64,000 bases of DNA from Pseudovirgaria hyperparasitica. Lineage: Eukaryota; Ascomycota; Dothideomycetes; Acrospermales; Acrospermaceae. The stretch lies in NCBI RefSeq assembly GCF_010093815.1, contig NW_022985551.1, forward strand, positions 68,832 to 132,831, read 5' to 3'. Under the pieces are notes generated by a model. It was not told the DNA's origin. It made no database searches and was given only the letters and a program-made list of their open reading frames with translations. Position 1 is the first letter of the stretch. The number at the start of each line of letters is the position of its first letter. A program made the position numbers and the translations under genes. Positions 45,880-57,426 of this stretch are shown one piece after another.

Positions 45880-45975
45880 ATCCGTTTGTCCATAGTTACA
45901 TGGGAAAGCTTGGCGCCCGATGCACGTCTGTGCCACCAACACGCGTTTTTATATGTAATTAACATTTTACGGCAT
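45880..45975 (+). repeat. Left arm of a 96-bp inverted repeat bracketing the RIP block
   Basis: Begins ATCCGTTTGTCCATAG and ends TTTTACGGCAT. Its reverse complement lies at 57331-57426, with 95 of 96 bases identical by eye. The one mismatch is CA against TA, the change RIP makes. The arm contains normal CpA and TpG (for example ATGCACGTCTGTGCCACC), unlike the DNA just inside. Outside the arms the two flanks are unrelated, and I see no matching direct repeat next to them. Confidence 0.95.
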
Positions 45976-46229
45976 TATCGCCGCACCACACGTATATAGA
46001 GTCTATAACTATATAATATAGTATATAAGAGTTAGTATATATAATATTTAGTATTTTTAACTTACTAACGTGTGTATATATAGTACCCTAGGGCGTTATC
46101 TATCCTGATTCCGTATATAGATAAATCGACTTCCTCCTATAACACGATATACCTATTAATAAGATTATCGCTATTACTAAAGTTAGTAAGAATATAGTAT
46201 ATAGGACGAGGTTTAACCTTAAGACGTAC

Positions 46230-47200
46230 GGATAGAGAAATAAACCGTAGTTAACGCGTTATGGTCCACCTCGTTAACTAAGTAATTATATAATATAATA
46301 ACTACTTAAGAGACTACTTTGTAAGGGCTAGCTATACCTTAATAAGATAGCTAGATAGATATACGAAGAGTTTAATCTTACTATATCTAAATAGCTTCTA
46401 TCTAAAGAGTTATCCAAGCGAGGGTAGAATTATAAGCTATTAAAATATATTAGTAGTACGTGCTTAGAGATAGCGCGTACTTTATACCTTAAGGATATTA
46501 CGGAGCTACTAGTAGACTTATATATCTTCTTAGATAAGGTTATTTTTAATAAGAAAATTAGATAGAGGCGTCGAGCTAGAGTACTAAAAGGATAGACTCT
46601 AACTAAGATTAGTACTCTTAATTAAGGATCTATATATAGCGTATATAGAGCTATTACGGCTAATAGTTTTATCTACTATTAGATAAAGGAAGGTTATTTC
46701 TTAACGGATAAGTTCTATACCTAGCTATAAGTATACCTATTACCTACTCTCGAGGTAAAATACCCCGGGTATATAATAATAATTATTATAGATAATCTCG
46801 TACTTTATACGAACTAATAGATTAAGCTACTTATACTTAGCGCTAGCTATATTATATAGTATATACTACCGTACTTACCTAACTTTAATTCTATTAAGCT
46901 TATATAGGCGGTAATAAAGGTATAGATTCGTAGGTAGTATATCTAGATATATTAGTAATCTTAAACTTTTAAGGACTTTCTCTATATCGTATTTATATAT
47001 AGCTATACTAATTAGTAGGCTCTACGCTTCTTTAAATATACTATAGATAGGTACTATATTAATAAGATGCTCCGGTAGAAGGTAGTCGCTAATTTAGAGA
47101 GGTTTAGATAAGGTAGAGATAGTAGAGAGGTTACTAAAGTTAAGGAGATTAGGAGACTTTTTTATAAACTTATTAAGTAACTTACTCGTTACTAACTCGC
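46230..47200 (+). mobile_element. Relic of a Tc1/IS630-like (DDE_3) DNA transposon
   Basis: The plus strand still shows the catalytic layout of DDE_3 transposases. An aspartate segment of the IIIDN type lies at about 46785-46795, followed about 75-110 bases on by a degraded form of the family's hallmark LPPYSPDFNPIE string (46866-46905). A basic, helix-rich N-terminal part lies upstream (about 46230-46620). The frame is interrupted many times by RIP, so no protein is made. I could not find short terminal inverted repeats specific to this copy. It may be the transposase of a larger element bounded by the 96-bp inverted repeats, but that is speculation. Confidence 0.7.
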
Positions 47201-48210
47201 CGATAAGTAAGTCGCTTAGCTAGCTAGTAATAGTCTATATATATATCCGTTTTAGGTACTATTCGTCGAGTATATAGCCTTAATATATAAATATATACTC
47301 CTAAATACACTCTAAGAAATACTATACTATCCCTATCTAAATACTAGTTATACTAGTTATAGTAAACGCCTAGAGCAAGGACGCCGCCTTACTTATCTTA
47401 AGTTACTTCTTATACTTATAAAGGTATAGACGTGCGTCTAGTAGGATACTAAGTAGAATACCTACTATCTTCGCGGCTTTATAATAAGTAGTTCTAGACT
47501 AAGTTATCTCCTTAATATAGCGGTAAGTATAGTAGTTATTATCTATATATAGTCTTAATTCGTGTATTCTAGCCCTCGTCTTATCGTAAGTCTCTATCTC
47601 CTTACGCTATTTAAGAGCTAATAGTACTATATCCGCCTAGTAACGCCCTAGTTATACTAGACTACTAAAGGTTTCTATAACTCGTGTCTAAGGGGGTATT
47701 TTATAACGAGTCTTACGAGTTAGCGAATAATTTAAACTATAAGTAGATAGAGGACGAGGTTAAGGTTAAGGTTAAGGAAACGTAGGTATCTATATAGGTA
47801 TTATAGGATTAAATCTATAATACTATAATTCTATCTAACGAAGTAGTTAAGTATATACGAGCTTATCTTTATTATCTTAATAATATCTTACCGCCGCCTC
47901 CTTACGCTTAATTATTATCTATCTTATCTACTTATCTTAAAGCCTCGTATTCCGCTCCTTATAATCTAACTTAGCCTCCTTATATCGTAATCTCTTTATT
48001 TTAAGGCGCTCGAGTATAGAAGTAGTACTTCCGTTAACGGCGGTTAACGAGGTACTAGTTCTACTACTAGTTCGAGACTTCCTTAGGCACGGTCGAGCGA
48101 TAATCTTATAGAATAAGTCTATTAACGGCTTATCCTTAGTTACACCTTAAATACTATTAATAATATTATTAGCCTATAGCTCTAAGATAGTCTTATCTAC
48201 CTTATAGTAG

Positions 48211-48448
48211 TGTAAAGAGTAAAGACGTAGGATAGTAGTCTAACAGTTTATAGAGAGACATAGGAATGTATTTATAGAGTAATCTCACTCTTATACGAGG
48301 TTAATTCCTAACGAGTAGGAATTGGTTTATATAGTCCACTTATATAGTGACCTTGCTTAACTTAGCTAACTTAACCTAGCTCTGGCCACTACGTGGCTAT
48401 ATAGATTAGAATAGTCTATATAGATCTATTATGGTTCCCGTCCTAATA
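48211..48448 (-). repeat. 3' LTR of the fossil Gypsy element
   Basis: 238 bp, aligned without gaps to 56016-56253. The two copies differ at roughly twenty positions by eye, all transitions, so the divergence reflects RIP and cannot be used as a clock. The ends on the coding strand correspond to TG...CA after allowing for RIP. Confidence 0.92.
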
Positions 48449-48927
48449 ATATCCTTCTTCTTTTTATACTTCGCCCTAAAGTACTTAAGTATATATAATT
48501 CTAAGTCTCTATAATCTATCGTGTACCTATACATCTATAACTAAGTTTCTATAACGTTATAACTATCCTTAATATAGGTGAACTTAAGATTCTAGTTCAC
48601 TTTTATTAGTTTATACACGCGCTTATCCCTTACTTTATAGCTACTACCTAGGACACGTAATCGCTACTTTAGTCAAGTATATATTTAGCTTCGCTCGCCT
48701 TTAATTTTATTCTCTAGTATATCTACTTCGCTCTTAAGGTAAGTTATTAATTTATATACTATCTTCCCTAGTTTAGGTTTAGAAGGGTCTATAGTAGTCT
48801 ATTCTTATTAGAACCGGTCCTATATAACCTATTCGCGTTATTACGGTTACTGATTTAGCTTTATTAATCGCCGTTAAGGGTAGACGAATATTCCTTCCTT
48901 AGATCTCTAGCTAACGTATATATATAG

Positions 48928-49320
48928 ATGTCTAATACTAGTCCTATCTCTAAGCCTACCTCCTCCTCTTATAAGACTCGCTCTAAAGGTATCGCCTCCT
49001 CCCCGGCCACACCAGCTAAGAAGCCTACCTATTACGGTGGCACGAAGGCGCGCTCTAAGTTAGAGAAGAGAGTAGCTAGGGCTACTACTACTACTACCTC
49101 TACTACTAATATAGCCACTAGTTACTCTAATCTAGGTAATCCTAGTACTAAACTTATAGATAAAGTGGTCGTAGGTTCCCCTCTCGCTCTAAAGCGTACG
49201 CCGCCTACTCTACCTCCTCTAGAGGATAAAGAAGATCTCGTCATAGACGATAATCGCGAGCCCTTACGCTCACCCACGCCGCCGCCTCGCCGCTCTTCCT
49301 TCCGGTCTAATATAGACTAA
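48928..49320 (+). CDS. 130-codon antisense ORF inside the Gypsy element
   Basis: An ATG-started open frame on the strand opposite to gag-pol, between the chromodomain region and the 3' LTR. The peptide is basic and Ser/Thr/Pro-rich (SYKTRSKGIASSPATPAKK, TPPPRRSSFRS) and resembles a disordered N-terminus of a nuclear or DNA-binding protein. It is the only long frame left in the RIP block and keeps some CpA sites. Coding-like composition seems to continue to about 50.2 kb on this strand. No family is recognised. It is treated here as part of the fossil. Confidence 0.45.
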   Translation: MSNTSPISKPTSSSYKTRSKGIASSPATPAKKPTYYGGTKARSKLEKRVARATTTTTSTTNIATSYSNLGNPSTKLIDKVVVGSPLALKRTPPTLPPLEDKEDLVIDDNREPLRSPTPPPRRSSFRSNID

Positions 49321-52300
49321 TTTAGTCGCTCTAGGTCCTTTTAGGACCTTAATATTCGCTCTAAACCCTAGCCTACTAATAATAAGGCCTAGGTCGCCGA
49401 GGATACTAAATGTAGTCGCGGTTTACGCCATAGGAAAACGGCGAACTACGGTTCGATATACTATAAGTATATTAAGGGCTATACGGCCGGCTCTAAATAT
49501 CTCTTTCGCTCTAACTCTAGTATTAGCTACTACTCTACTAACCGCGACGGGCCTATACGCCCTATCTTTACTCTATCTACCCGCTACTACCGCTATACTA
49601 TAACTAGTAAGACTTATCTATAGGTGAGTATAATAGGCTATCTTAATCTAGTATAATCTAAAGTGGTCCGCGCTAATATATTCTTAGGTTCCTATATATA
49701 TATAAGATATATATAACGACCTTCGCGTCCGCGAGACCCTCGGGGGTCCTTATAGCCGCCTACCTACTATATAGAGGGAGTTTAGGGAGCGCTATAAGCT
49801 CTTCCTAGAGGTTATTAAAGTATAAGTTATGAGCACGTTAATTATTTTTAACATCTATTAATTTTTCTAGCCGCCGCGAGATCCCTAGCGCCTAGGCTAT
49901 CTATTCTAGGGAGTCTATTCTAGCTATAGAGGCCGTAGAGAGAATTCGCTCTATCCCCCCCCGTCCATCTCGCGCTACTAATAGATCTTATAAGAGGTCT
50001 ACTATTTCTCCCTCTAAGTCGCCTCGTAAGAGGGTATATATTCCCTTCTAGATTATTCTAGATCATGTTAGCTAACTTTAGACCTAGTCGCTACGCTCCG
50101 GCGCTTAAGGCTCTTCCCTCTAGACTCTAACGGATCGGGTTATTACTCTAGAGGCTAAGGTTATCGTCCTCCGCCGCCATGTTATATAGTTAGAGAGGAC
50201 TACGCTAGAGGTTAGGACGGATAATAAGATAGAGAAGTAGCTCTATGGTTCTAGCTCTATATGTTGGCTCTATACCTGGCTCTATATATTCTAGATCTAC
50301 TATAGGTGGTGCGCGCCGGCTCTATTTACCTAGCTTTTATCCGTTTTAGTCCTTTTTAGACCGTTTAGATACCCGTCGGCCAGTTTCTAGTAATTTAATT
50401 CTTAACTTAATGATATTATGTGTGCGCTCGCTTAGCTTATGACTATCGGTTTCTATATTCTAATTTTCCTTGAGTTACCTAAGTGTAGGCACCGCATATA
50501 AATTAGTTTATCTCTATGAATTCTATTAGAGTACCCGAACTAGTAGTCTAGTAGTTATCGGTTTAGATACTCTAACCTTTTATATTTCGTATTAAGAGTT
50601 TAATTCTATGGTAGGGTACCTTTTTTTAGGTTCTTGGTCCTATATTTTTCTCGTGTATAATAGTCCGTATTAGTCCATTCTAGACTCTTCTATATTATTC
50701 TATTATGGTATGTCGCGTCGCGTTCCTAAAATGGTTATTTACGCTTTCTTCGCGTCTAGTAACTATATAACGCTTAAATTATAGGGCTACTATATAGAGT
50801 TTTCCTAGTGCGCGTCTGGATTTCCTAGTTTGGTACTTCGTTCTCTACGGTATTCTTCTTCTTTTTATAATAACCGCGACGTCGCTATACTTATATTAAT
50901 AATACGCTATTCTATATCTTTTGCTTATACGCAGCTATTATAGAACTTAAGATATATACCGCTAGTTCCTAGGTGTCCTCGTCCTTAGTATAGTCCTTCT
51001 AACGGATTCTATATTTCTAAACACCGTCTTTATCAATCCTATATTCGATAATATGGTCCACTTCGAACACGTCTAGTCTATCTTAGGGTATAATAGAGTG
51101 TAACTACACGTTCGTGCGGCTATATATATTAGGTCGAAATCTTTCGAGTAGTAAGACGTAGAATACCTTATAGATTCTTATATCGCTTCCTAAGTTAAGC
51201 TCGTAGGCTCTTATACTAATATAACGTTTAATTCGGAAGGGACCAGCTATTTTATAATCGAGCTTCTTATTTACTCGTAATATTCGTATATTATAGACGT
51301 TAAGAAGGACCTTATCGCCCTCCTTATACGTCTAATCCTTAGTTAACCTATTATAGTACTTCGTATACGAGTCGTTTACTTATTGGATTATAGTATAATA
51401 GTTACGTGCGGTTTCGAAGATTTTAATCGCTAATTCCTAAGCGTGGACGTTCACGTCTATTATTCGATTAAATTAGACCGTCTAAGGCTTAAAACCTATC
51501 CTTAGACTATATCTAAGGTTCGCCTAGAAAGGTATAATACCTATCGTGCTATAACGACTATTATTATATACGAACTCTACTATACTTAGTAGAGAGGCCT
51601 AGTTATTCTACTCGAAATTATAGAATACGCGTAGGTAGGCCTTGAGCGTCTAGTTCTATCGCTCTATCTAGCTATCCGTCTAAGGATAAAATACTATAGA
51701 TATATTCCTATTTATACTTACTATTTTATAGAATAACGTCTAGAATTTAGACGTGAAGGTACTTCCTCGGTCTATAACGATCCTTTTTAGTATACCATAG
51801 ACCTTAATAATCTCGTTCTAGAATACCTACGCTAGTTCTTTAGATGTAATCGTCTTCCATACCGGGATGTATCTAGATATCTTTATAAGTCTATCCACGA
51901 TAATAAGAATAGAATTATAACTTATTCTAAGCATCTCGCTTAGAGATAAGTTAACTATAAAGTCTATAGTAACGTCTTCCTATATAAAGAGGAGGGCTGA
52001 AAGAGGCTGTAAATTCCTATATAGCTTATGCCTAGGGGCCTTCGTTCTTTAATAAATTAGATAAGTAGCTATCTATTCTTTAATATACTTAGATATATCT
52101 TTCTAAAAATAGTACTAACGAATTAAGCTTAGGGTACGTATATACCTAAAGTGTCCTACTAGGTTAGCGTTATAGTATTAGCTAACTATATTAAATCGCG
52201 CGTTACCTATCGGTATATAGTACTTTCTATTATAGTAAAGTAAGCTATCCACGAAGGTCTACTTATAGTCTACTTTAGTCCGTAATAACCTATCTTACTA

Positions 52301-55300
52301 TATTTTACGTAACTTTAAAACTATTAGGTCTATCTTCTATAGATCCACGATTAACTAGGCGAGGTTAATTAGATATTTATACTGGGCATTATCGCCCTTC
52401 CCGACAGCGCTAATAAACGGCCTACTAGGAACTTCGGTACCGCGTCTTTGGTTACCGGCTTCGGTCTTAGAGATTCGATTACCGGTATCGATATTAGCAT
52501 CTCGCTAATTACCTAATAACTTAAAATCCAACCTCGTCCTTAAGAGTTAGGCCTATAGCTACTCTAGGACCCTATAGCTACTATAATCCTAGGCGCCTTC
52601 TTTATAGTTAGGTCTTCTTAATATTCTATTAGCTAGGTTTATACTTCTAGGTCGATAGTAGATTATAAAGTAAAAGTTTATAAGCTACTTAGCCTATTAG
52701 ACCTATCGACGGTTTAAAACTATCGTGCTTATAAACCCCTTTAAGTTATAGTAATTAGTTAGTAACTCGACGTTATATATAGTACCTTTAAGATAATATC
52801 ACTACTATTTAAATGACTCTACTATTACTAGTAGCTCTTAGTTATAGATAGTATATCTAGTCTTAATATTAACTATTTTGCGTAAGAAGAACGTAACTAG
52901 ATACTATTAGACCTTTTTAGACTTAGTTAGTCTAGGCTAGAAGAGAATACCTAAGATTATAAATCCTAACGCGTCGGTTTTAACATGGATAGATTTAGTT
53001 AGGTCGAAGTACACTAGTAATAGGGTAGTTATAAATGCCTCTTTGATTTTCTCGAAGGAGGCCCTTTCGCCTTCTAATAATTCTATAGGCTGCGATTTAA
53101 TATTACGCTATTTCTATCTACCATGGACCGTAATAGATAAATCTATAGTAGTAGTACACGTGTTAAGCGGTGCTACTAGCCGGGAGAAATGCTTAACGAA
53201 TTTTCGGTAGTAATTAGTAAATCTAATAAAGACACGTATGTCTCGAACTAATTTTAGTTTAGGCTAGTCCACGATAGTAGCGACCCTATCCCTTTCTATA
53301 GTTATACCTTAATTAGTAATAACGAAGCTAAGGAAGTTAACGTGGTTCTAGTAGAACTTATATTTAGATAGCTTAATATATAGCTTATGTTTTTCTAGCC
53401 TATCTAGGACTACGCGTACGTACTAGATGTGTTCTTCTTCGTTATTAGAGAAGATAAGGATGTCATTAAGGTATACGATGCACATCGTATCAAGTAGGCC
53501 TACTAGCGCGTTATTAATGTACGCTTAGAAGGTTCCTAGCGCGTTAGTTAGTCTAAAAGGGACTACTATATACTCGAAGTGTCTATAACGGGTCCTAAAC
53601 GCCGTTTTCTACTTATCGCCCTTCTTAATATATAGGCGGTAGTAGGCGTTACGTAGATCGAGCTTAGTAAAGATCTTCACACACCCTAGTCTATTAATAG
53701 ACTCGGAGATAAGAGGTAGTAGGTAACAATTCTTTCACATAATATTATTTAGGCTATAGTAGTCAATACATAGACGGAGACTCCTATCCTTCTTCTTTAT
53801 AAAGAGGATTAGAGCTCCGGCTAGGGATATACTAGGCCTAATCTATTCTCGCGTAAGGTTCTTTTCGATATATTCTCGGAGGACCTATAGCTCGGGTTCT
53901 AATAGAGGGTAGATGGGTCTATATAGGGGTTATTAACCGTCTTTAAGGTTAATAGTAAGGTTAGTAGGTTAGTATTAAGGTAATTCGGACGAGTCGATTA
54001 CTAACGCGATATATTAGTATATTTTATACTAATATAGTAGGTTTTCGTCTACTTTAATACTAAGCTCTCTATTTTAAGTAAGTAAGAGAACGTAGATAGC
54101 GGAGATTATCTTTTTGTAGTCCTTCTAGAATTATTCGTCGTCGACTAGCTATACTAGGTTCTATTATAGTAGGTACATGCGCTAGCTAGCTGTTTTCTAG
54201 ATGAAGTCTAGTTTCGGGTTATATTTTTCGAGCTACGGTATACCGAGAATCATATTAAAGGGACTATCTACCACGATAAAGGTTAAGTAGTAGGGTTTCC
54301 ACTTCCCCCCGCTATCCTAGATACTATATTTAATAGTATAGATACCCTACGATTTAATAGGACCATTAATACTATAGAAGGTAGCATCTATTAGTGCTTA
54401 AATATCGACGTTAAGTTCTCGTGCTTGTTAAGTCGATATAACGTTAGTAGCTAAACCGCTATCGAGCATTACGGTCTAATATTATCTATAAGAGACCTTG
54501 ATGGGCCTAGTCTATAGTTTAATATACTAGTTAGCTAGTTATCTCTCTATTTTAGTTATACCTATAAGTCGCGAGGGTTCCTTATAGGCAGTTAGTTTTT
54601 TATATTATATACCGGGTAGTTAGGCGCGATGTATCCCGGCTACTAATACTTATAGTATATAACTAACTTAGTATCTATATTAGTATTTAGTGGTTTCCCT
54701 AAGCGGTACTTAGGTGCTATATGGCCTATCCTACTATAGGTATAGTAGGTAACTTTAGGTCGTTTATACGAGTCGTTTCTCGCGTCTTAATATATCGACT
54801 AGTAGAAAGATCCGCGGTACGGGCCTCGTCTTCTCGAGTTCGTAGAGTAGTAGCGCCCACGAGGTATTCCGCGCGATCTATTACTAAACCGGTCCTCTTT
54901 AGATGATTTTATATCGGATTAGATTAATAGGGATAGTCGTGCGCCTATACGACGTTAGTTATTCATTATACGCTAATATTATTCTACGAGATTCGCGAGT
55001 ACCTAAAGGTTAGTAGGGATAGACGTTATAAGGTTAATATATTTCTTTACGCTTAGGTTAAGGGACCTTTTAAAGTCGTCGTATTATTAAACTATATAAT
55101 CTTCCTTAGCTTCTCTCTAAAGAGGTCGGAGGTATTCGAGAAGTTATAACGGGGATTATCTCTCTCGCTATTAAGTCTTAAAGATATAGCTCTAAGCCTA
55201 TTCGCGTCGCTCGGCTCTATCGCCGAAGTATTAAAGAAGGAATTCAGTGAACGTGTCCTAGTTATACGTATCCTTAGGGTGTTTAATTCGATGTACCATC

Positions 55301-56015
55301 TAACGTTTAGATGGTGTTAGGTCTAGGTAGTTCTATATAAACCTAATCTTATTACTATCGTTCGTGAATAGGTGGAAGAATCGGCTATACTAGTAAGCCT
55401 ATTTATAAAAGCTCCTCCTAGTTTTACCGTTAAAGTAAGGTAGTTTCTTAGACTAAGGTAACTAGGATAGTAATAGACTTAGTTAGACTATTTCGGCTTA
55501 AGTTAATCCATATTAGTATAGATTAGTTACTACTAGTACTAAAGCGCGTAGTGCGGCTTTAAGTCTAGCGGTTCGTCCTCACGCTTTATTAAGTTTATAA
55601 AGTTATTACTTAAGCTAAGCCTAATACTACCTCTCCGTGTATAGCTTAGTATATACGTCGTTATAAGGCGTGGTTAACGTTAGTTAGTTCTAACGAATTA
55701 ATTTATTAACGTTAATAGGGTCTGGTCTTATAGTAAGGATGGGTCTAGTATAGTATAAACTAGACCGCGATAGAGTATAATGGACTCCTTCCTTATTATC
55801 TAGGTAATCTTCTACGGTTATATAGAATACCGTACTAGTTATTAGTATGATAGTCTATAGGGTATACTTATTAGTAGAGGTGGTCGTAGGGAGACTATTC
55901 TCTTCATTTAGATTTAGAGAGAGTCTCTCGTGTAAGGTAGTACTACGGGTATTATAGCGCGTAGTAGGAGCTATCTCTATAAGCTACTATCGTACTATAT
56001 AGAGAGGAATTAAAA

Positions 56016-56253
56016 TATAAAGAGTAAAGACGTAGGATAGTAGTCTAATAGTTTATAGAGAGATATAGGAATGTATTTATAGAGTAATCTTACTCTTATA
56101 CGAGGTTAATTCCTAACGAGTAGGAATCGGTTTATGCGGTCTACTTATATAGTAACCTCGCTTAACTTAGCTAACTCAACCTAGCTCTAGCCACTACGTG
56201 GCTACATGGATTAGAATGGTCTATATAGGTCCGTTATAGTTCCCGTCCTAATA
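56016..56253 (-). repeat. 5' LTR of the fossil Gypsy element
   Basis: 238 bp, the partner of 48211-48448. It is followed directly by the AGTAG target duplication at 56254-56258. Confidence 0.92.
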
Positions 56254-56258
56254 AGTAG

Positions 56259-57330
56259 AGTATTCTATTAGATAATATAATCTTATAGTACTAACCTTAG
56301 TAGTTTATATACGTCGCCTTACTATACTAGAGCTTACTCTAAATATTATTAATAATGACTTCTCGGTCACGGCCTCGCTATCTTCGCTTCTCCTATAATT
56401 TAAATAGCTATTTTAAGCGTCCCTTAAGGTTTGGATCTATAGATAACGATACTAGACTAGTAGAAACTATACTAGTAAGTAGTAATAGCGTAGGAGACTT
56501 CGGATTAGATACTATAGCCTTCTTACGTCCTAGTAGCTAATAAGACTTATAGATAATAGTATTCTTAAAGGTAAGGAATATAGCCTCTAGTAGATCCTTT
56601 CTTACTAGGCTATAGATCTTATTAAGGAAGGTAAGAAGCTTATTCTAGTTATCTAGACTCTAGTCTAGAAGTATTAACTATTTTCTAGTACGACTAGATA
56701 TTCCGAGCTTTATAGTAAAGCCTTAAGTCTTAAATAGCTAGTTATTAGTACTAAGAGCCTTATTAATTAACTACTAAATCTCCTCCTTATATAACTCCTT
56801 CTTAAACTTATACTAGGCTTCTATCTTTAGTAATATAGCCTTAATAATCTTTCTAAAACCATCTACTCTAAGTTACTAATTTATATAGATAGACTATATT
56901 ATCTTATTAAGAGCCGCGTTATTATCCTATAGATTCTTCTTCTCCTCCTCCTTAACTATATCTCTATAAACTAAAGTAGAGTTATTAGTATTATTAGGTA
57001 TATTACCTAGTAAGGCTAGAGGATTACTTAATAAGGGTACGTTAGAGAGTACTAGCGGTATATTTTTATGCCTTACCGCTATCTTCGTAGCCCTTAATAC
57101 CTTATCTATACTATACTAGAGCGCCTTCGACGTAGATATATATAGCTATAGTCTAGAAGGTGGTAGTAGAGGTTCTATTAAGTTATTCTATCCGAATTAA
57201 ATACCTTTACGCTACTTAGGAGATATAATAGATAGTGTAAAATAGTTAAAAAAATACTAATATATGGCTAATATCATATAATACTAATATATAATAGGTA
57301 TTTTAATAGGTATATGAGTATTCGTCGACG
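56259..57330 (-). repeat. Degraded repeat DNA right of the Gypsy element, origin unknown
   Basis: RIPed throughout. On the minus strand between about 57.05 and 56.55 kb the composition suggests a former coding region rich in Lys, Leu, Asn and Ile with a charged, helical character, interrupted often. I cannot assign it. It should be the continuation of the sequence at 48.0-48.2 kb that was split by the Gypsy insertion, as the shared AGTAG duplication implies. Confidence 0.5.
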
Positions 57331-57426
57331 ATGCCGTAAAATATTAATTACATATAAAAACGCGTGTTGGTGGCACAGACGTGCATCGGGCGCCAAGCTT
57401 TCCCATGTAACTATGGACAAACGGAT
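57331..57426 (-). repeat. Right arm of the 96-bp inverted repeat
   Basis: Reverse complement of 45880-45975 with a single mismatch. The sequence just inside (57240-57330) is RIPed and the sequence just outside is normal. See the left arm. Confidence 0.95.

Follow-up and report, generated by a model that had tools for sequence, protein, structure and literature searches.

A probable DD34E transposon mutated by RIP, with spared inverted repeats and a nested Gypsy-type element, in Pseudovirgaria hyperparasitica

The locus and its features

We analysed 64,000 nucleotides of the genome of the ascomycete Pseudovirgaria hyperparasitica (assembly GCF_010093815.1, contig NW_022985551.1, positions 68,832 to 132,831; hereafter the window), in which two 96-bp arms at 45880-45975 and 57331-57426 enclose an AT-rich block that resembles DNA altered by repeat-induced point mutation (RIP). 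The arms are reverse complements with a single mismatch at arm position 84, where CA in one arm faces TA in the other, and their identity ends sharply at the outer edge; between them the GC content is 0.29-0.44 per kb, compared with about 0.5 in the surroundings. Taken together, our results make it highly probable that the block is a 3.5-kb DD34E transposon which duplicated AT on insertion and was killed by RIP, whose terminal inverted repeats were spared at the repeat edges, and into which a Gypsy-type long terminal repeat (LTR) element was later nested (Table 1). A sequence-only reading of the window had already described inverted arms around a RIP block and had noted that the arms look unmutated over most of their length. 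Both points hold, the latter for about 70 of the 96 bp, after which the arms become RIP-like as well.

Table 1. Features of the transposon copy and its nested element (window positions)
Feature	Position	Strand	Basis or remark
DNA transposon copy with nested LTR element	45880..57426	+	11,547 bp between arm edges; about 3.5 kb once the nested element is subtracted
AT, probable 2-bp target site duplication, left copy	45880..45881		from empty sites of two related MITE (miniature inverted-repeat transposable element) insertions
Left terminal inverted repeat	45882..45975	+	94 bp without the AT
Putative DD34E transposase gene remnant	45942..47231	+	tblastn span of the C38 relative's read-through, 63% identity, E 1.8e-149; a span, not gene ends
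ORF2 (second open reading frame), downstream part, convergent to the transposase	47325..48209	-	match to ORF2 of a relative
AGTAG, left copy of the 5-bp duplication made by the LTR element	48206..48210		single AGTAG at the C6 site
Gypsy-type LTR element, RIPed	48211..56253	-	8,043 bp; LTRs, AGTAG duplication, domain matches
LTR, left in the window	48211..48448	-	direct repeat, about 92% identical
Chromodomain remnant	50918..51067	-	E 0.0012, under the Pfam cut-off
Integrase zinc-binding remnant	52037..52198	-	Pfam scan
RNase H remnant	52679..53068	-	Pfam scan
Reverse transcriptase remnant	53321..53800	-	Pfam scan
LTR, right in the window	56016..56253	-	direct repeat, about 92% identical
AGTAG, right copy of the 5-bp duplication made by the LTR element	56254..56258		single AGTAG at the C6 site
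ORF2, upstream part, cut off by the LTR element	56255..56962	-	match to ORF2 of a relative
Right terminal inverted repeat	57331..57424	-	reverse-complement match of the arms
AT, probable target site duplication, right copy	57425..57426		from empty sites of the MITE relatives

The genes of the transposon were read from relatives elsewhere in the genome. A relative on contig C38, 80-83% identical, encodes a DDE_3 transposase (PF13358, E 4.2e-55) whose second D and E are separated by 34 residues, the DD34E spacing, and the same domain was matched in the C36 and C59 relatives. The second gene, ORF2, was read from the C59 relative, where it occupies the opposite strand of the other half of the transposon, convergent to the transposase; its sequence was matched in all ten full-length copies, in the window as two parts that flank the LTR element. 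A Pfam scan of the ORF2 frames gave no match, a large protein collection held no relative of either the transposase or ORF2 at E<=0.001, and a search of solved structures returned antibody matches alone, which we judged spurious. Contig C38 also carries two adjoining, tandem DDE_3-type transposase remnants that are 68% identical to each other (L058, 7400-9650).

The nested element displays, on the minus strand of the window copy, Pfam matches in the order reverse transcriptase, RNase H, integrase zinc-binding domain, SH3 and a weak chromodomain, while its plus strand gave no match. The chromodomain of the window copy falls below the Pfam cut-off, whereas that of the C13 relative lies above it (E 3.3e-8); the minus strand of this relative gave no Pfam match. 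That the Gypsy element jumped in later, as first surmised from the sequence, is borne out by its AGTAG duplication and by copy C6 of the transposon, which represents the uninterrupted site of the insertion with a single AGTAG. The only open reading frame of more than 100 aa within the block (48928-49320, 130 aa) lies on the plus strand, opposite to the reading strand of the Gypsy element.

Copies, MITE relatives and target sites

The 96-bp arms are transposon ends and not a local inverted duplication, because inverted pairs of them occur at ten loci in the genome and related ends bound MITEs of about 490 bp. With one arm alone as the query, we searched the genome of the organism itself (35 Mb, 59 contigs) and scored 40 of 60 candidates; of the 40 matches 20 formed ten inverted pairs lying 3.6 to 54 kb apart (copies C3, which is the window copy, C4, C5, C6, C7, C10, C12, C13, C20 and C25), with six pairs about 490 bp apart, the MITEs, among the remaining 20. 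A pattern made from the first 30 bases, with a tolerance of 3 mismatches, picked up 59 ends genome-wide, 30 forward and 29 reverse, while the reversed control found 0. The DNA inside the arms was RIP-like in each of the seven copies that were read (C3, C6, C7, C10, C12, C13 and C20), and thus the genome search with the arm alone, which the sequence-only reading had put forward, points to a transposon family. A core is common to all ten copies, seven of which were read, with C4, C5 and C25 assigned by matches to core or ORF2 sequence; a search with the core alone, in which the best 40 of 159 candidates were scored, contained the ten full-length copies. The alternative that host DNA was duplicated and inverted at insertion, or that an arm is an assembly misjoin, would fit the lack of a duplication in the flanks outside the arms, but is refuted by the ten inverted arm pairs and the MITE ends at other sites together with the shared 3.5-kb core, and we give it practically no credence.

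The shortest copy, C6, measures 3,656 bp including an LTR-like piece of 155 bp; without this piece it matches the window copy at about 94% identity, except that the latter has 8,043 bp more. The arms had previously been proposed as the ends of a large composite element; they are indeed terminal inverted repeats, but of an element of about 3.5 kb that carries a nested 8-kb LTR element. A giant transposon of 11-54 kb with 96-bp ends and cargo would accommodate the paired-arm distances of 3.6 to 54 kb. However, among the copies read the extra DNA lies at differing core positions and comprises, among other things, LTR elements of which the genome has many further copies, the window insert is bounded by a 5-bp duplication of its own, and the 3.66-kb form of C6, together with AGTAG, refutes the cargo reading for the window copy, so that we consider a giant element very improbable overall. 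The LTR-like piece of C6 (L011:1266-1419) appears by eye to be unRIPed within a fully RIPed core. This repeat of about 154 bp occurs at many sites in the genome, with pairs about 450 bp apart, and in this it resembles a miniature LTR element (terminal-repeat retrotransposon in miniature, TRIM).

The MITE relatives have about 30 end bases in common with the full-length transposon. Five MITEs of about 490 bp (L028, L029, L031, L032 and L033) are 97-100% identical at unrelated loci, other MITEs being more diverged, and the four of these five that were profiled (all but L032) have RIPed interiors, which suggests that they spread after RIP.

The ends of the arms probably also conceal the target site duplication of the transposon. 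The earlier remark that no flanking duplication is visible stands for the DNA outside the arms: among 26 insertions (the ten full-length copies and 16 MITE copies, a subset of the existing MITEs in which at least two have a damaged end), flanks were alike over at least 3 bp in none and over 2 bp in five, and TA was present on both sides in one, a MITE, and in none of the ten full-length copies. To find empty paralogues, we joined the two flanks of each of the 26 sites and looked for the result elsewhere in the genome; two sites, both MITEs on C38 in repeated DNA, had three and six such paralogues. All nine empty sites hold exactly one AT between the flanks, and TA does not fit. Therefore, the AT with which the arms end is a 2-bp target duplication, at least for these two MITE relatives, and by extension the outermost AT of the window-copy arms is probably the duplication of that copy as well. 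If so, the empty allele of the window locus would read CAGGTCTCA-AT-CGCCCATC. No paper combining the wording 'AT target site duplication' with Tc1-mariner came up in a full-text literature search, and among 15 of 70 papers from a looser search none contained the phrase 'AT dinucleotide'.

Mutation of the copies and the margin at repeat edges

The copies bear the hallmark of RIP in repeats, C-to-T changes in CpA that affect both strands. We compared six copies, leaving aside the more diverged C12 and drawing the middle region from four copies, and found that C/T or G/A accounted for 132/133 variable columns on the left, 75/75 on the right and 175/180 in the middle (382/388 in total); with C12 included, 22/180 variable columns on the left and 16/111 on the right were neither. 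As the variable columns are almost all of these two kinds, the six copies differed very little at the onset of RIP. Four-gamete incompatibilities came close to the values of shuffled data in the three regions (1734/2926 against 1768.7, standard deviation (sd) 28.6; 534/946 against 566.0, sd 12.8; 1217/1891 against 1254.3, sd 23.4), and hence RIP hit each of the six copies almost independently, after insertion, with at most a slight shared history.

Where RIP stops within the repeats was followed by means of the unmutated share, that is, the target dinucleotides CA and TG against TA. Pooled over the 20 full-length ends, this share was 0.70-0.77 over 400 bp outside the element and 0.77-1.00 over the outermost 70 bp of the element itself, apart from a dip to 0.51 at 10-20 bp that coincides with a TA in the sequence common to the ends; it then fell to 0.06-0.60 at 70-120 bp and 0.02-0.06 at 120-360 bp, with 0.17 in the last 40 bp examined. 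No outward leakage of RIP was seen in the pooled flanks of these ends. The 24 pooled MITE ends displayed a step at 70 bp too, with 0.22 in the first 10 bp, a low value due in part to one MITE subfamily that has TA for the arm's TG after another base change, and 0.54 in the next 10 bp. Taken singly, 19/20 full-length ends had an unmutated share of 0.67 or more over their first 70 bp, and 24/24 MITE ends one of 0.50-0.87, whereas at 121-200 bp the share was 0.00-0.12 in all 44 ends.

A general edge effect behind the sparing of the arms is suggested by a paired control on LTRs, in which the mutation load depends on position. The control used the 208-bp terminal repeats of element X, a 7.4-kb element found inside several transposon copies, as five left and six right LTRs, with two unclassifiable LTRs kept out of the Fisher test. 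Here the first 66 bp were unRIPed at 20/165 sites where the LTR lies at the repeat edge and at 3/172 sites where it is internal (Fisher 1.4e-4). LTR edges were compared with internal copies of the same LTR only, because the sampled X and Gypsy copies offered no clean edges against unique DNA. Twenty Gypsy-element edges gave 84/320 unRIPed sites at 1-66 bp and 33/297 at 67-141 bp, and at the LTRs of the window Gypsy element the contrast was 4 to 1 at one end and 5 to 4, without effect, at the other. The arms thus look fresh probably since RIP tends to stop about 70 bases before the repeat edge; rather than shortness, which had originally been suggested, position at the repeat edge seems to be the main cause, given that LTR 66-mers are less mutated at an edge. 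Among the papers listed by literature searches we recognised no earlier report of such a RIP margin, judging from titles and the beginnings of abstracts.

Two other explanations of the clean arms have to be weighed. The arms may have been kept clean through selection if, after RIP, only copies with intact ends could move, and the five MITEs that are 97-100% identical at different loci, those profiled being RIPed inside, may indeed have spread after RIP. Nevertheless, the six compared full-length copies were RIPed almost independently, only C25 among the ten full-length copies (from the best 40 of 159 core candidates) has a clearly RIPed arm, and LTR edges, which would not need such selection, show the margin too; we regard selection as distinctly improbable. 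A bound protein, either the transposase or a host factor, could instead shield the arms from RIP. This would agree with a margin that is stronger at the inverted repeats (mostly 0.7-0.87 per end) than at LTR edges (0.12-0.26), but the LTR control is position-dependent in the absence of any terminal inverted repeat, and the limit of about 70 bp is common to MITEs and full-length elements. We consider shielding unlikely, though a more serious contender than selection.

Several observations speak against our reading of a RIP-killed DD34E transposon with AT duplication and edge-spared repeats. The link to the transposase runs through a relative, since the core copy C6 gave no Pfam match in six read-through frames because it is too RIPed, and the AT duplication was seen at MITE relatives only, which share about 30 end bases, and at no full-length copy. 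In one of the three regions the four-gamete count lies 2.5 sd below the shuffles, which hints at some shared ancestry of mutations. The C25 end at 49265 (L022) is RIPed in its arm (0.38 unmutated) and has a RIP-like flank (0.29), and the left end of C10 is weaker as well (arm 0.67), with the second most RIP-like flank of the 20 (0.49); a margin that is weaker where the outside is also RIPed fits the edge rule, on the strength of these two ends. The much stronger margin at inverted repeats than at LTR edges implies that an arm-specific factor may contribute. Finally, passages of a study of Z. tritici (PMC10294615) describe RIP mutations as more rather than less frequent at the ends of LTR elements, and class II elements as not varying in this way along their length.

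Island growth and comparison with known systems

The copies and their surroundings suggest that RIPed transposons seed AT-rich islands. The transposon flanks are not RIP-like at 18/20 ends (at least 0.69; the exceptions are C10 left and C25 at 49265), and the MITE flanks have an unmutated share of 0.56-0.89. LTR-element DNA was identified in at least eight of the ten transposon copies, with C6 holding only the 155-bp piece and C25 containing about 30 kb of extra, unread DNA. Copies C7, C10, C12, C13 and C20 each hold element X, each at a different core position. We labelled X an LTR element on account of its terminal direct repeats, and the Pfam scan detected no retroelement domain on the strand scanned. 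The idea that X targets this transposon was dropped, X being abundant genome-wide (best 40 of 271 candidates scored). In samples biased towards the best-scoring copies, a start could be read in 19 of 20 further X copies, and all 19 lay in AT-rich, RIP-like flanks; nine X copies inspected earlier, for flank GC alone, had values of 0.21-0.41, and 20/20 Gypsy copies lay in RIPed flanks. If a chromodomain integrase steered insertions towards heterochromatin on RIPed DNA, this pattern would follow. The ten loci form a series that leads from a single small insertion (C6, 3.7 kb) up to islands of tens of kb.

We propose that a 3.5-kb cut-and-paste transposon, with inverted repeats of about 94 bp, a DD34E transposase of the IS630/Tc1 type and the convergent ORF2, would have entered gene-rich DNA and duplicated AT, as seen for two MITE relatives and presumed for the window copy. 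Its copies would have numbered about ten, with at least six that were nearly alike, and RIP would then have mutated each nearly independently, as is seen for those six. By mostly halting about 70 bp before the repeat edge, RIP would have let the inverted repeats survive while the genes died, a pattern that is observed and for which the edge is our presumed cause. The Gypsy element, with its probable chromodomain, inserted into the transposon, as AGTAG and the uninterrupted copy elsewhere show, and was RIPed itself; its arrival may have followed the RIP of the core, drawn by heterochromatin on the RIPed DNA. The wider proposal, that a margin of about 70 bp exists at edges facing unique DNA, so that genes die while ends stay movable in trans, and that RIPed transposons serve as landing pads for chromodomain retroelements and grow into AT-rich islands, seems to us evenly poised.

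With regard to known systems, we view the transposon as a variant of Tc1/mariner, because Tc1/mariner elements duplicate TA and here AT is found. Like IS630-Tc1-mariner elements it has a DDE_3 domain with DD34E spacing (in the relative), terminal inverted repeats, a 2-bp duplication and MITE derivatives; it differs in the AT duplication of its MITE relatives, inverted repeats of about 94 bp, a second, convergent gene and a length of 3.5 kb. Elements of the Fot/pogo type carry a DDE_1 domain, whereas the relative has DDE_3, and AT in the MITE relatives takes the place of TAA, TAAA or TA. Starships, which are giant elements, have at one end a DUF3435 tyrosine recombinase; no Pfam match came from the six read-through frames of C6, a core copy in which RIP masked the transposase too. 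TA is given as the classical duplication of the Tc1/mariner group, and TAA and TAAA as those of Fot and Fot-like pogo elements, in parts of PMC7386202, and sections of PMC4188875 and PMC2836289 report TA for fungal families. An AT duplication combined with a Tc1-type transposase thus departs from the group-defining TA.

The nested element resembles chromodomain Gypsy elements (chromoviruses) in its LTRs, its 5-bp duplication and the order reverse transcriptase-RNase H-integrase-SH3, followed by a probable chromodomain, and no difference from them was established. Moreover, as in chromoviruses, the sampled Gypsy copies lie in RIPed DNA, with a weak chromodomain match in the heavily RIPed window copy. 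Similar to RIP in Neurospora crassa, the mutations are C-to-T on both strands, CpA first, and strike repeats while sparing unique flanks; unlike there, the outer 70 bp or so of the repeats are largely spared here. If true, such a margin constrains how RIP recognises homology and explains the survival of inverted repeats and MITE ends in RIPed fungal genomes.

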